A stretch of DNA of 64,000 bases from Desulfobacteraceae bacterium. Its GTDB lineage: Bacteria > Desulfobacterota > Desulfobacteria > Desulfobacterales > Desulfosalsimonadaceae. This document shows positions 37,776 to 43,521 of the stretch, piece after piece. The notes under the pieces are model-generated. The model worked only from the letters and a program-made list of their open reading frames with translations, was not told where the DNA came from and made no database searches. Numbering within the stretch: position 1 is the first letter of the stretch; each line of letters opens with the position of its first letter. The stretch is taken from contig JAABSH010000006.1 in NCBI GenBank assembly GCA_011390465.1, forward strand, positions 1 through 64,000, in the 5' to 3' direction. The translations under genes were made by a program, and so were the position numbers.

Positions 37776-39068
37776 CTATCCCGAGCGGCCGGACACATTG
37801 AAAACAGGGCGCAGGTTGCCGGCAGCATCAAATGCCAGGGGCGCCCATTCAGAAACCAGGGACAGCTGAGGCTGTTGCCGCAATTGGGCCGCCAGGGGCC
37901 GGGAAATCTGCATATATTCCAGGGATGCGGTGTGTTTAATCCGGACCACCCGCAGATTTTCAGGATCCGGGACCCCGGTGGTCCGGGCGCAGGCCCACAG
38001 GCATTCTCTGTCCGTATCAAAATAAACCGGAATAGCGGCTTTTTCCGGCGAAATCGCGGTAATGGCGTTCACCCGGGTTTTATTCAGATCCATCCGCTCC
38101 ACCAGCCGCCGGGTGGTAACATCCGCCAGCCCGATACCGTTGGCATTGCCGTCTGAACCCGGGGACAGATCCCGGACAAAAATACGCCGCACATGCGGCG
38201 CCGTATTCATATCCCCGGTAATGTCCCGGTGCCGGCCGGTGACATTGGAATCCATGCCAATGCCGGAAATATCTTTTCCGAACTGATCGATAATCAGAAT
38301 ATCCAGCCGGTCAAAAGGAATGCGGCCCATCATCTGGCGGGCCTGTTTTAAAAGCTGTTTTTCACGGTCAACGAGCCCGTCCGGCGGCAGTGCGGCGATT
38401 TTGGCAAGACAGCCACAATTGTCCTCCACCAGACCCACGGCAAACAGCAGGTTCAGTTTTTGGAGAAGCACCCGGGCGCCTTGTTCAATAATGCCAAACC
38501 CCTGGTCCACGGCGTGCCGGTGAAATTCCGCGGCCCCGTCTTTTTTCCCCAGGCCGATGGTCATCATTTTGCAGATGCCGGACTCGATTTCAGCGGTAAA
38601 TTTTGTATGGGGCTTGATCCGGTTGATCACCACCAGATGGTCCGCATCCAGCACAGATGACGCCATGAAAAGGGTGGGCCCGCCGGGAAGCGCCGCCAGG
38701 GGGCGGGTTTCCATGTCCGCGGCCACCGGAACCCCCATGGATGCTTCCGTGATGCCATAACCGGCCAGAACAGACACCTGCCCCCGGGCCGTGCCGCCGC
38801 CGTGGCTGCCCATGGCCGGCACTATAAATGGGTGATACCCTTTTTGCTCCAGAAACCGCAGACACCGATCCACCACCGGCATAAGCCGGTCAATGCGCCG
38901 GCTGCCCACTGCCACGGCCACCCGATTGTTTATTTTGCGGGCAAACGGGCAGGAAAGGGCCTTTAACGCGGCATCTGCCGCACTGGCGGCGCAGGAAATG
39001 CCGGCAGCGGGAAATACCTGACGGACACAGGCCATTTCCGGAAATACCAAAGAATTAGAATCGTCCAT
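37776..39068 (-). CDS. LarA-like (DUF2088) protein
   Basis: The ATG at 39068 (MDDSNSLVF) is preferred over an in-frame TTG at 39080, giving 430 residues. The N-terminal half has VAVAVGSRRIDRLMPVVD and FIVPAMGSHGGGTARGQ, then ADHLVVINRIKPHTKF and CKMMTIGLGKKDGAAEFHR, blocks shared with the lactate racemase (LarA) N-terminal family. Classical LarA enzymes use a nickel-pincer cofactor made by LarBCE, none of which is visible here. Lar-family paralogues act on other 2-hydroxyacids, so the substrate is uncertain. It lies between the RNase J operon and a ferredoxin gene, with unclear connection. Confidence 0.78.
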   Translation of the reverse strand: MDDSNSLVFPEMACVRQVFPAAGISCAASAADAALKALSCPFARKINNRVAVAVGSRRIDRLMPVVDRCLRFLEQKGYHPFIVPAMGSHGGGTARGQVSVLAGYGITEASMGVPVAADMETRPLAALPGGPTLFMASSVLDADHLVVINRIKPHTKFTAEIESGICKMMTIGLGKKDGAAEFHRHAVDQGFGIIEQGARVLLQKLNLLFAVGLVEDNCGCLAKIAALPPDGLVDREKQLLKQARQMMGRIPFDRLDILIIDQFGKDISGIGMDSNVTGRHRDITGDMNTAPHVRRIFVRDLSPGSDGNANGIGLADVTTRRLVERMDLNKTRVNAITAISPEKAAIPVYFDTDRECLWACARTTGVPDPENLRVVRIKHTASLEYMQISRPLAAQLRQQPQLSLVSEWAPLAFDAAGNLRPVFNVSGRSG

Positions 39069-39148
39069 CACTGACGACAAAAAACGTAAAAAGGGTTATG
39101 ACAACAGGCAAGACACGGTATAAAATACCGCTGTGACAGGGAAAGGAA

Positions 39149-39567: not shown

Positions 39568-40518
39568 TTATATCTCAATAAACACCACTACCGTGTTTAC
39601 CGTCTTCTTGACCGTACCGGCACCGGGCCGTGAAACCGGCTGTCCGGCGATCCGGCAGCAGAAATCCCCGGCATCCGCATCCGGCAGCGCATAGAAACGC
39701 AGCCCCACTTCCGGGCCAGTGCCGGCGATTAAATCCGGCAACACCCTGCCGCCGCTCAAAGGCCCGGCTGCCAGTTTTGCCAGGTATTTTTCAAGGGCCG
39801 CCCCCCCGGCTGCCGGCTGCCGGCAGGAAATTCTTTCAATGGCACCCACCGGCGCAAGCTCCGGCACCTGTTCCCGGATTTCTTCCACTGCCGCGCGGCT
39901 GTCCGTCACCAGAAAAAAAGAACCTGACGCCGGGGCCCACTCCTTGAAAAGACGGCACCACGCGGAAAGGCGGGGACCGGTGCGGTAACTCCCCGAATCA
40001 CCGGAAAACCGGGTTTTTACAGAATCATCTGAAGGCGTTTCATCGCCTTTAATCCGGGAAAACAGATGCTTTTCCGCATCCTCTGACGCAGCCAGATCAT
40101 GGGTGAGTTCATTCTGCCTGGCATCCAGATCCTGCGCCATCAGCAGAAAAAGCCGGGCCGGAAAAAGGGGATCCGGATCCGGAGCGTCCGGATTCCCGTT
40201 TTTCAGGATATCGGTTTTTATCTGAGCAGTAAACGAATCCTGAGATGTGCCGGTTTCAAAAAATGCTTTTAAGGATATTTCTGAGCCGTGATGCAGTCTG
40301 CCCCACTGGTAAAACGCTTCCAGCACCTGTACCAGTTTGTCCCCGTCTCCGGCGCAGGGAATCTGGAGATGAATGAGACCATCGGCCGCCAGTTTCCCCA
40401 GGGCTGGCGGCGGATTTTCAGCCACGGGCTGAAGCACGGTGACCGGCCCGAACAGGGAATGCAGCGCCTGTGCCACGGGCTCCGGGATATATGTCATGGG
40501 AAAATAAATGGGAATCAT
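39568..40518 (-). CDS. Unknown 316-aa protein downstream of the cysteine synthase fusion
   Basis: A soluble protein opening MIPIYFPMTYIPEPVAQALHSLFGPVTVLQP, with an acidic middle (ETPSDDSVKTRFSGD) and a Cys pair near the C-terminus (GDFCCRI). The first 70 residues read like a short Rossmann-like beta-alpha unit. I recognise no family. It starts 30 bases after the stop of the fused cysteine synthase gene with GAGAGG as ribosome site, so it is likely the third gene of the tmk operon and may cooperate with the fusion. Confidence 0.7.
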   Translation of the reverse strand: MIPIYFPMTYIPEPVAQALHSLFGPVTVLQPVAENPPPALGKLAADGLIHLQIPCAGDGDKLVQVLEAFYQWGRLHHGSEISLKAFFETGTSQDSFTAQIKTDILKNGNPDAPDPDPLFPARLFLLMAQDLDARQNELTHDLAASEDAEKHLFSRIKGDETPSDDSVKTRFSGDSGSYRTGPRLSAWCRLFKEWAPASGSFFLVTDSRAAVEEIREQVPELAPVGAIERISCRQPAAGGAALEKYLAKLAAGPLSGGRVLPDLIAGTGPEVGLRFYALPDADAGDFCCRIAGQPVSRPGAGTVKKTVNTVVVFIEI

Positions 40519-40548: not shown

Positions 40549-42840
40549 TCAAATATCTTTTTTTTTCACGTCCCGCACACTGACGCCAAGGGAGCGCAAC
40601 TGGTCCCTGATTTGGTCCGCTGTTTCAAAATCCCCCGCTTTTCTGGCGGCTTCCCGGGTTTCCATTAATTCCCGAAGGGCCGGGTCCAGTTCCGGCGGGT
40701 TAAAATCAAAAATCCGGATCACCGCGTCAACGCCTTTAAAGGCGTCCAGCAGCATGGCGGCATTGGCCGCGCTGAGCTGCCGGCCTTTAATCAGTATATT
40801 GATTTTTTTTATGATATTAAAAAATTCGCTCAGGGCCCGGGGAAAATTCAGATCATCATCCATGGCCGAAACAAACACATGCCGGATATCATAGACGATC
40901 TGGTCAATATCCGGATACGCCTCACCGTCTGTAATGGCCATCAACGCATGAATGCAGGCATCAATCCGTTTCAGAGCCCGCCGGGTCTGAATTTTGAGGC
41001 GTTTTTCGGAAAAGACAATTGATTTCCGGTAATGATTGGAAATGATCCAGAAACGAATTTCCCTGGGGGTAAACCCTTGCCGGACCAGGGCGTCCAGGGT
41101 GGGCAGGGGCGGTTTTTCCAGGCGGTTGTCCCGGGTTTCCAAAAACACCTCGCCGCAATGAATCCAGAACCGGGCCAGGGGTTTGCCGGTCACTGCCTTG
41201 GCAATGGCCAGTTCGTTTTCATGGTGCGGAAACACCAGATCCCGGCTGCTGGTATGGATATCATAGGACTCGCCCAGATATTTCATGCTCATGGCCGCGC
41301 ACTGAATGTGCCAGGACGGCCGCACATTGCCCCATTCCGTCTGGATATAAATCCCCCGTTTCAGCTCGGACAGCCGGGCCCGTTTCATCAGGGTAAAATC
41401 CCGGGGATTGTTTTTTTCATATTCATCCAGATCCACGGTGGCCCCCAGCTTGATTTTGTTCAAATCAATGCCGGAGAGCCGGCCGTATTCGGGAAATCCG
41501 GCAATATTAAAATACAGAGAATGATACTTTTCATAGGCGATCCCCTTGTCCACCAGTTTTTTCACCAGGGCCACCATATCGTCAAAATGCTCGCTGGCCC
41601 GGGGATATTTCTCTGCCGGCTTGATGTTGAGCCGCGCCAGGTCCTCCTTGAAAAGATCAATGTATTTCCGGGTAAAATCCGAAAGATCCTCTCCCGCCGC
41701 CTCAGATCCCTGGATGGTCTTGTCATCATAATCCGTGATGTTCATGATGTGCCGGACGCTGTAGCCCCGGAATTCCAGGTAGCGGCACAAAAGATCGGAA
41801 AACAGAAACCGCCGGCATTCTTCAATATTCATCCGGGAATCCGCCGTGGGGCCGCAGGAATACACAGACACCCGGCCGGGCTGGATCGGCTCAAAGGGCT
41901 GCTTGGACCGGGTCACGGTATTGAACAGAAAAAGATCGGCTTTCTTTTTTTGGGCAAACAGCGGCGTGCTTAAATACCGTTCTCCGCTGTCCGGAAAAAT
42001 CACGACAAGGGTGCCGGTTTTCATTTTCGCAGCCTGCCGGGCCGCAACGACCATGGCCGCGCCGCTGCTCATTCCCACAAACAGGCCCTCTTCCCGGCCC
42101 AGGCGCCGGGTCATGTCAAAGGCGTCTTCATCCTCAATATTGACGATTTCATCCACCCATTTTTTGCTGAAAATTTCCGGCCGGTAAGCTTCTTTCAGAT
42201 TCTTAAGGCCCTGGAGTTTATGGCCCAGATAGGGTTCCACCCCGATAATCCGGATATTTGGATCATGCTCCCGAAACCGTCTGGCCACCCCCATGAGGGT
42301 GCCGGTGGTGCCGATGGTGGCCACAAGCGCGGAAATCCGGCCCTCTGTCTGCCGGATAATCTCTTCTGCGGTGCCGGTATAATGGGCCATCCAGTTGGCT
42401 TTGTTGTTGTACTGGTCGGTCATGAAATACTGGTCCGGGTTTTCCCGCACGATCCGGTAGACTTCCTCAATCGCACCGTCCGTGCCCAGATGGCCGGGAG
42501 TGAGCATGATTTCCGCGCCCCGGGCCGCCAGGATCTTGCGCCGCTCCTCACTCACCGCCTCGGACATGGCCAGCAGCAGCCGGTAGCCCTTGATGGCGCA
42601 GACCATGGCCAGGCCGATACCGGTATTGCCGCTGGTAGCTTCGATGACGATTTTATCCCGGGTCAGCTCGCCGGATGCCTCACCGTCTTCGATCATGGCC
42701 AGGGCTGGCCGGTCTTTGATGGACCCCCCCGGATTCACGTACTCCACCTTTGCCAGAATTTTTACATTCGGATTGGGGTTCAGTCGTTTTATTTCCACCA
42801 GCGGTGTATTGCCTACCGCCTGCAACAGGGAATACTGCAT
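40549..42840 (-). CDS. Cysteine synthase fused to catalytically altered cysteinyl-tRNA synthetase-like domain
   Basis: A 763-residue fusion. Residues 1-300 are a CysM/CysK-type PLP enzyme: Lys42 (PGGSIKDRPA), ATSGNTGIGLAM, IGTTGTLMG and PDSGERYLST. Residues 303-763 align throughout with CysRS (FNTVTRSKQPFEPI, CGPT, NITDYDDKTI, WHIQCAAMS, FPHHENE). The zinc ligands that select cysteine thiol are kept (Cys329, Cys514, His539, Glu543), but the HIGH motif has become NIEE (338-341) and KMSKS has become roughly NRLEK (572-576). Cysteine adenylation is thus unlikely. It is in one operon with tmk (18 bases upstream) and an unknown gene. Function of the second half: cysteine sensing, channelling or a new ligase, all inferred. 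Confidence 0.88.
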   Translation of the reverse strand: MQYSLLQAVGNTPLVEIKRLNPNPNVKILAKVEYVNPGGSIKDRPALAMIEDGEASGELTRDKIVIEATSGNTGIGLAMVCAIKGYRLLLAMSEAVSEERRKILAARGAEIMLTPGHLGTDGAIEEVYRIVRENPDQYFMTDQYNNKANWMAHYTGTAEEIIRQTEGRISALVATIGTTGTLMGVARRFREHDPNIRIIGVEPYLGHKLQGLKNLKEAYRPEIFSKKWVDEIVNIEDEDAFDMTRRLGREEGLFVGMSSGAAMVVAARQAAKMKTGTLVVIFPDSGERYLSTPLFAQKKKADLFLFNTVTRSKQPFEPIQPGRVSVYSCGPTADSRMNIEECRRFLFSDLLCRYLEFRGYSVRHIMNITDYDDKTIQGSEAAGEDLSDFTRKYIDLFKEDLARLNIKPAEKYPRASEHFDDMVALVKKLVDKGIAYEKYHSLYFNIAGFPEYGRLSGIDLNKIKLGATVDLDEYEKNNPRDFTLMKRARLSELKRGIYIQTEWGNVRPSWHIQCAAMSMKYLGESYDIHTSSRDLVFPHHENELAIAKAVTGKPLARFWIHCGEVFLETRDNRLEKPPLPTLDALVRQGFTPREIRFWIISNHYRKSIVFSEKRLKIQTRRALKRIDACIHALMAITDGEAYPDIDQIVYDIRHVFVSAMDDDLNFPRALSEFFNIIKKINILIKGRQLSAANAAMLLDAFKGVDAVIRIFDFNPPELDPALRELMETREAARKAGDFETADQIRDQLRSLGVSVRDVKKKDI

Positions 42841-42858: not shown

Positions 42859-43521
42859 TTAGTGGCCCGCCGGCACGGGGGGGTTGCCTGTATGAACAAT
42901 TTTTTCCAGATGCGACAGAATCCGCTTTTTTACCGCCTCGGGATCAGCCGACGCATCCACCACCACAAACCGGTCCGGAAACGCCCGGGCAAGGCTCAGA
43001 TAACCGGCCCGGACCTTTTCATGAAACACCAGGGTTTCGCTTTCAAACCGGGTTTCCGCCGCTGGCCGCGACCCGCTGGAAATCTGGGCCCAGGCCCGGC
43101 GCAAGCCTTCTTTTGGGGGAAGATCCAGCAAAAAAGTCACATCCGGCAGCAGCCCCCCCAGGGCCACCTCATTGAGCTGCCGGATCAGGGGCATTTCCAG
43201 ACCCCTGGCAAAACCCTGATACACCGTGGTAGCGTCGCAAAACCGGTCGCAGATAACCGTTTTTCCGGCTGCCAGCATGGGCGCTATGAGTTCCCGCACA
43301 TGCTGGGCCCGGTCTGCGGCATACAGCAAAAGCTCTGTCACCGGATGCATGCCGCTGTTTTCCGGATCAAGCAGCACGGCACGGATCTGACGACCCAGCA
43401 GGGTGCCGCCGGGTTCCCGGGTAAGGACCACGTCCCGGCCCCACTCCCGGAGATAGCCGGCCATATGCGCAATCTGGGTGGTTTTTCCCGACCCTTCAAT
43501 CCCTTCCAGTGTGATCAGCAT
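42859..43521 (-). CDS. tmk: Thymidylate kinase
   Basis: A 220-residue dTMP kinase with the P-loop EGIEGSGKTTQI, the TREPGGTLLGRQIR substrate segment, the DR motif ICDRFCDATTVYQGFARGL and a LID region (FLLDLPPKEGLRRAW). It phosphorylates dTMP to dTDP. In many bacteria tmk precedes holB; here holB is at 46.5 kb on the other strand and tmk instead leads the cysteine synthase fusion. The start is separated by 190 bases from the divergent lptD. Confidence 0.96.
   Translation of the reverse strand: MLITLEGIEGSGKTTQIAHMAGYLREWGRDVVLTREPGGTLLGRQIRAVLLDPENSGMHPVTELLLYAADRAQHVRELIAPMLAAGKTVICDRFCDATTVYQGFARGLEMPLIRQLNEVALGGLLPDVTFLLDLPPKEGLRRAWAQISSGSRPAAETRFESETLVFHEKVRAGYLSLARAFPDRFVVVDASADPEAVKKRILSHLEKIVHTGNPPVPAGH

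Follow-up and report, generated by a model that had tools for sequence, protein, structure and literature searches.

Several described proteins resemble the one reported here in part. Gcn2 is a eukaryotic kinase in which a pseudo-synthetase resembling HisRS, a class II synthetase, is fused to an effector and is thought to read uncharged tRNA. HisZ, a HisRS paralogue, forms a separate, histidine-dependent regulatory subunit of HisG; the excerpt of PMC9437257 presents it as a paralogue that has no adenylation activity and works for an enzyme of amino-acid biosynthesis. The cysteine ligase of mycothiol synthesis, MshC, is an ATP-dependent CysRS paralogue with a related catalytic fold (3c8z). A second CysRS-type protein also occurs in bacteria related to our organism: according to the same excerpt, the CysRS* of Desulfobacterales charges SelC*, is active and lacks an anticodon domain (PMC9437257). 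Finally, cupin-MetRS paralogues combine a class I synthetase paralogue with another domain, a cupin, beside a normal synthetase, and belong to mobile predicted peptide operons (PMC2922099, in excerpt).

The gene analysed here lies in a 64-kb stretch of DNA from a Desulfobacteraceae bacterium (the window, meaning the whole stretch) and joins a cysteine synthase to a CysRS-like domain. In contrast to HisZ, its synthetase part is of the class I CysRS type, is attached in cis and preserves the tRNA pocket. Whereas Gcn2 is a kinase, the fusion is a bacterial metabolic enzyme for the cognate amino acid. Unlike MshC, whose model stops before the anticodon domain, it has lost the ATP motifs and keeps that domain, which makes it the opposite of CysRS*. 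Unlike cupin-MetRS, it pairs the CysRS domain with the enzyme that makes cysteine, the cognate amino acid, and is located next to tmk in the window's order. We found no published description of the fusion in searches of open-licence PubMed Central. Tentatively, and with a probability of about 0.42, we propose that the protein is a working cysteine synthase carrying a dead CysRS in cis, which would bind tRNACys and couple the synthase to the state of this tRNA, in the manner of Gcn2 and HisZ.

Architecture and genomic setting of the fusion

The preliminary description of the locus had claimed an uninterrupted frame of 763 codons for a cysteine synthase and a full-length CysRS-like domain. We confirmed this frame, which ends in a stop codon, and assigned it to the minus strand, which had not been named; plus-strand frame 1 contains internal stops. 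The gene, its domains and its neighbours are as follows.

40549..42840, minus strand: fusion gene, CysM-like cysteine synthase plus pseudo-CysRS, 763 amino acids (single open frame)
41953..42840, minus strand: PLP cysteine synthase domain, residues 1-296 (profile match to the cysKM model TIGR01136)
42715..42717, minus strand: Lys42, the PLP lysine position, within GGSIKDR (alignment)
40993..41934, minus strand: CysRS-like catalytic domain, residues 303-616 (PF01406, tRNA-synt_1e, at 316-616, and fold)
40693..40992, minus strand: helical bundle of the DALR type, residues 617-716 (PF09190, DALR, at 656-699)
40558..40695, minus strand: CysRS anticodon-binding domain, residues 716-761 (PF23493, CysS_C)
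39568..40518, minus strand: adjacent gene of family A2, 316 amino acids, usually beside the fusion in the order (synteny)
42859..43521, minus strand: tmk, encoding dTMP kinase; upstream of the fusion, with the arrangement shared in the order (profile match and synteny)

The synthase part matches PALP at residues 6-284 and exceeds the cut-off of the cysKM subfamily model TIGR01136 (359.2 versus 344.15 bits), and misses the narrower equivalog models for cysM (343.6 versus 394.2 bits) and cysK (313.6 versus 350.95 bits). Lys42, reported earlier as intact, is indeed conserved, as is the substrate loop S70-G-N-T73, in 147 of the 148 orthologues; the one exception is a row truncated at this point of the alignment. 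The PLP domain is predicted to be active. In a homology search of the window's genome (3.9 Mb, 119 contigs), the fusion was the only full-length cysteine synthase matched, since the other CysK-like match is a fragment (contig C114, 1429-1782, covering query residues 44-139). This fragment adjoins cysE, looks truncated inside its locus, and is possibly a pseudogene or an assembly fault.

Residues 303-761 align over the whole of CysRS, i.e., the catalytic domain, the DALR-type bundle and the anticodon-binding domain. An AlphaFold2 model of the fusion reached a mean pLDDT of 86.8 with a pTM of 0.61; the domains are thus well defined while their relative placement is uncertain. The modelled fused domain superimposes on tRNA-bound E. 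coli CysRS (1u0b) with a TM score of 0.86 by target length over 475 columns, and the fusion model also matches MshC (3c8z) and cysteine synthases. No HisRS homology was found in Pfam, in the best 25 of 43 NCBIfam families or among the listed fold matches, all of which are of the CysRS or PLP type.

A first set comprised 79 non-redundant full-length orthologues, and a larger one 148. The latter were selected for length, with identical proteins counted once, from 154 two-domain frames. Among the six frames dropped, four are cut by the contig at the 3' end, one is cut at the 5' end, and one, L140, is frameshifted. In L140 (3692-6399; G070, a single-contig genome) the frame changes near residue 589 and the C-terminal part continues in an overlapping frame.

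In the window's order, the usual gene run is tmk, fusion and A2 gene; the surroundings differ in distant loci. The A2 gene adjoins the fusion as a rule in the order (exceptions G038 and G237) and in families f46 and f111, and elsewhere lies mostly apart from it. Among 14 regions chosen because the A2 gene lies apart, no neighbour common to most was found. The window copy of A2 belongs to no Pfam family, and none is consistent across 57 members. A fold comparison gave no Foldseek match at E ≤ 0.001 and no VIA-align match at Z ≥ 5 among 268 chains, a weak list that may miss a known fold. A gene for a nickel-pincer-cofactor isomerase of group 22 (37776-39080, minus strand; NF052515 above cut-off) is repeatedly found near the fusion in relatives as well, with 17 matching frames in the loci. 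No tRNA gene was found within the 64-kb window, and none of the 36 tRNA genes in loci L001-L187 is a tRNACys gene beside the fusion. Other tRNA genes (Ser, Pro, Arg, Leu and others) lie a few kb from the fusion in 19 loci outside the window's order (L126, L136, L138, L140, L141, L149, L150, L156, L157, L159, L160, L165, L167, L168, L170, L172, L174, L183 and L184).

Catalytic motifs, zinc site and anticodon pocket

Residue equivalences were set by alignment, with E. coli CysRS as the ruler. This placed the following elements.

41818..41829, minus strand: HIGH-equivalent segment, residues 338-341, reading NIEE
41116..41130, minus strand: KMSKS-equivalent segment, residues 571-575, reading DNRLE
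41854..41856, minus strand: zinc ligand Cys329 (E. coli C28)
41299..41301, minus strand: zinc ligand Cys514 (E. coli C209)
41224..41226, minus strand: zinc ligand His539 (E. coli H234)
41212..41214, minus strand: zinc ligand Glu543 (E. coli E238)
40606..40656, minus strand: G34-reading pocket R729, R733, F738 and D742, plus R745

The earlier reading of HIGH as NIEE (N338-I-E-E341) was correct. For KMSKS, given before as roughly NRLEK, the loss stands and the span shifts by one residue to D-N-R-L-E. The preliminary description had left room for a sequencing error or misalignment, which is ruled out because an H-x-G-[HN] motif and a KMSKS-like motif are both absent from 130 of the 148 fusions, the window's included. 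H-x-G-[HN] is present in five members, a KMSKS-like motif in 16, and both in three. These three carry H-x-G-N and KMSRS, two of them along with the zinc set, so that some members of the family may still adenylate.

How much of the HIGH motif was lost depends on the starting point. In seven of seven Verrucomicrobiota CysRS (L251-L257; six HIGN, one TIGN), the closest canonical relatives examined, the fourth HIGH position is Asn, with KMSKS intact. Since the three least-altered fusions likewise show H-x-G-N with KMSRS, the second His was probably never there, and HIGN is the likely starting state relative to which motif losses should be counted. This weakens the missing second His as proof of inactivation.

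The fused domain scores 335.9 and 337.7 bits in two scans with the CysRS model TIGR00435, just below the cut-off of 340 bits. The genome also encodes a separate, intact cysS (contig C22), whose existence had been an item to check in the preliminary description; it contains CHIGH and KMSKS and scores 580.7 bits against the same cut-off. This rules out the fusion as sole CysRS. A separate CysRS-length match was present in at least 55 of 60 genomes of the genus, family and order (among the matches listed, judged by length only), and the other five genomes are 61-86% complete. With both ATP motifs lost and an intact cysS elsewhere, a fused domain of the window's type is unlikely to charge tRNA, in support of the earlier claim.

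All four zinc ligands are present in the window fusion, as originally stated. Across the family, the CCHE set is complete in 99 of 148 members and incomplete in 49, with outright replacement in some lineages (MMHL, TAHV, IIHL). The fused domain could thus be pictured as a sensor resembling HisZ, in which the zinc site would capture free cysteine and exert feedback on the synthase while the tRNA-binding part is a relic. HisZ offers a precedent insofar as this HisRS paralogue without adenylation mediates feedback inhibition of histidine synthesis via HisG (PMC9437257, in excerpt). We consider such a cysteine sensor unlikely, as all 49 fusions without the full zinc set retain the anticodon pocket; a role of this kind may still apply to the 99 fusions with a complete site, the window's among them.

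The pocket residues R729, R733, F738, D742 and R745 correspond to R423, R427, W432, D436 and R439 of E. coli CysRS. There, as cited in the excerpt of PMC12684709, Arg427 and Asp436 form hydrogen bonds with G34 of tRNACys, Trp432 stacks, and Arg423 contacts G34 through water (PMC12684709, citing Hauenstein 2004). These four contacts are thus literature-derived for the E. coli enzyme and were applied to the fusion by alignment. R729, D742 and R745 are each found in 148 of 148 fusions and R733 in 145, with Lys in the other three; position 738 is always aromatic (W in 96, F in 45, Y in seven). The pocket is therefore complete in all 148 members when Lys is allowed at 733 and in 145 when it is not. 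Six partial frames extend over the C-terminal part, namely those of L073, L074, L076, L077 and L188 and the second frame of L140, and all six carry the motif.

Conservation within the protein is lowest in the C-terminal part, which has a mean identity to the window fusion of 39% versus 69% for the CysM part. Only eight of its 141 positions (617-757) reach 97% conservation, and three of the four G34-contact positions are among them (hypergeometric P = 5e-4). The same motif is found in 12 of 12 canonical cysS products, in E. coli CysRS and in all seven CysRS read from Verrucomicrobiota, with Lys instead of Arg427 in two cases. Hence, the pocket has been retained rather than gained, and its conservation could partly be structural. 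The contrast lies in what happened elsewhere: the catalytic motifs were lost meanwhile, and the MshC model TIGR03447, whose cut-off of 485.1 bits is not reached by the fusion (187.8 bits), matches only residues 299-704 and stops before the anticodon domain. The preliminary description had proposed binding of cysteine and perhaps tRNA. With the pocket kept in 148 of 148 members and the zinc site in 99, tRNA is the better-supported ligand, and the emphasis on zinc and cysteine has to be corrected.

The rapid divergence of the C-terminal parts, the erosion of motifs along lineages and the frameshift within the pseudo-domain of L140 would suit a decaying passenger, retained solely because the synthase needs it to fold or oligomerise. 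We regard this as very unlikely, because beyond residue 296 the alignment of the 148 fusions has 74 columns, including one gap column, with a conservation of 93% or more, the anticodon pocket persists throughout, and no natural end before the C-terminal domain was found among the 154 two-domain frames.

Remodelling, origin and distribution

R344, R487 and G496 occur in all 148 fusions and T468 in 144, and they are absent from both canonical sets, the cysS of the host phylum and the Verrucomicrobiota CysRS. R344 directly follows the HIGH segment and that segment's conserved Arg. The conservation of these fusion-only changes argues that the catalytic domain was altered under constraint. S441, Y474 and G589 were dropped as fusion-specific residues because Verrucomicrobiota CysRS share them.

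Two basic residues that are new and invariant in the catalytic domain, R487 and, adjoining the HIGH segment, R344, could belong to a repurposed enzyme that, for instance, passes cysteine from Cys-tRNACys to an acceptor or, in the least-degraded members, performs an ATP-dependent ligation. The KMSKS-like motif of 16 fusions, three of them also with H-x-G-N, would fit such a role, and a ligase resembling CysRS is already known in MshC (PMC9437257, in excerpt). A new reaction nevertheless appears quite unlikely to us given that the window fusion and 129 others lack the ATP motifs and that no neighbour resembling an acceptor pathway is common to most distant loci.

To place the fused domain, we used a maximum-likelihood tree (IQ-TREE) of 57 domains, among them 37 fusions and seven Verrucomicrobiota CysRS, five from better-scoring matches and two from lower ones; an earlier FastTree tree had left the root unclear. 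The fusions cluster, although support for them as a clade is weak (ultrafast bootstrap 50). Together with the Verrucomicrobiota CysRS they form a group with an ultrafast bootstrap of 100, from which the canonical cysS of the host phylum are separate. The fused domain thus groups with CysRS of the Verrucomicrobiota type rather than with the cysS of its host.

The fusion was found in 56 of the 60 genomes of the genus, family and order, as pieces only in G001, G007, G009, G027, G039 and G053, and was not seen in G030, G048, G054 and G055. Two phyla were sampled more broadly. Of 394 Desulfobacterota genomes with a completeness of 90% or more, 166 have the fusion (best E-value <1e-110; split or cut in G121, G306 and G433). 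It is carried by Thermodesulfatator autotrophicus (L068), in whose genome (G450) a second match, of CysRS length, lies apart from the fusion. For the Verrucomicrobiota, the phylum of the Verrucomicrobiaceae record L080, 115 genomes were searched; none of the matches listed spans both domains and none has a best E-value <1e-111.

Of these 394 Desulfobacterota genomes, 204 have dsrA (best E <1e-80). Both genes are present in 147 genomes, only the fusion in 19, only dsrA in 57 and neither in 171, an odds ratio of 23 with shared ancestry ignored. Family A2 has matches in 114 of these genomes, some of them weak (E up to 5e-4). Of the 114, 113 have dsrA and 105 the fusion; among dsrA-positive genomes, A2 is commoner with the fusion (104/147) than without it (9/57), a link that may be inflated because the A2 profile derives from copies adjacent to fusions. 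The earlier suggestion that the adjacent gene is the partner of the fusion finds no support here, since A2 follows dsrA more closely than the fusion. A2 seems to be a protein of sulfate reducers, not a subunit dedicated to the fusion. With neither a Pfam family nor a clear fold match, it is a candidate marker of sulfate reduction.

Sulfide is abundant in sulfate reducers. The association with dsrA would therefore agree with a simple tether that places the synthase on tRNACys or near CysRS or ribosomes for a local cysteine supply, without any signalling. The kept anticodon pocket and the domain spacing, identical in 121 of 148 fusions, point the same way. A pure tether, however, leaves R344, R487, G496 and T468 unexplained and is, in our judgement, improbable.

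A candidate reader of tRNACys

No activation of cysteine is expected, the G34 pocket is kept and the catalytic domain is changed; as a reader of tRNACys, the fused domain would be best explained. Because such a reader is joined to a cysteine-making enzyme, the control or placement of cysteine synthesis by the state of tRNACys would be its simplest use. The pseudo-synthetase would bind tRNACys via the anticodon, while the altered catalytic domain could meet the 3' end of the tRNA without loading cysteine. In this way it may distinguish free from charged tRNACys and set the activity or the place of the synthase, such that more cysteine would be made when uncharged tRNACys builds up. Binding, charge sensing and control of the PLP domain are all predicted from sequence. 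Among the roles named in the preliminary description, that of a sensor or feedback domain is the most plausible.

In a further scheme, the pseudo-synthetase would hold a tRNACys that carries an amino acid, and the PLP domain would act on that amino acid so as to make or repair Cys-tRNACys in situ. Mischarged seryl- or acetylseryl-tRNACys, for instance, might be converted to Cys-tRNACys, a tRNA-dependent route to cysteine in sulfate reducers that bypasses SepRS and SepCysS. Neither of these two scored above its cut-off in the window's genome (SepCysS best 21 versus 365.25 bits; sepS 27.3 versus 380.65 bits). We deem this scheme highly improbable.

For annotation, the fusion carries a warning: its fused domain lies just under the CysRS cut-off and could be misnamed cysteine--tRNA ligase. 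The orthologues form a series from near-complete to fully eroded motifs with an unchanged pocket, which makes tRNA reading without charging directly testable. For cysteine, we know of no biosynthetic enzyme that is coupled to translation in this way, through contact between protein and tRNA, and the searches of open-licence PubMed Central gave none. If the fused domain does read tRNACys, the fusion would be a bacterial biosynthetic enzyme tied directly, through such a contact, to the use of its product by translation.
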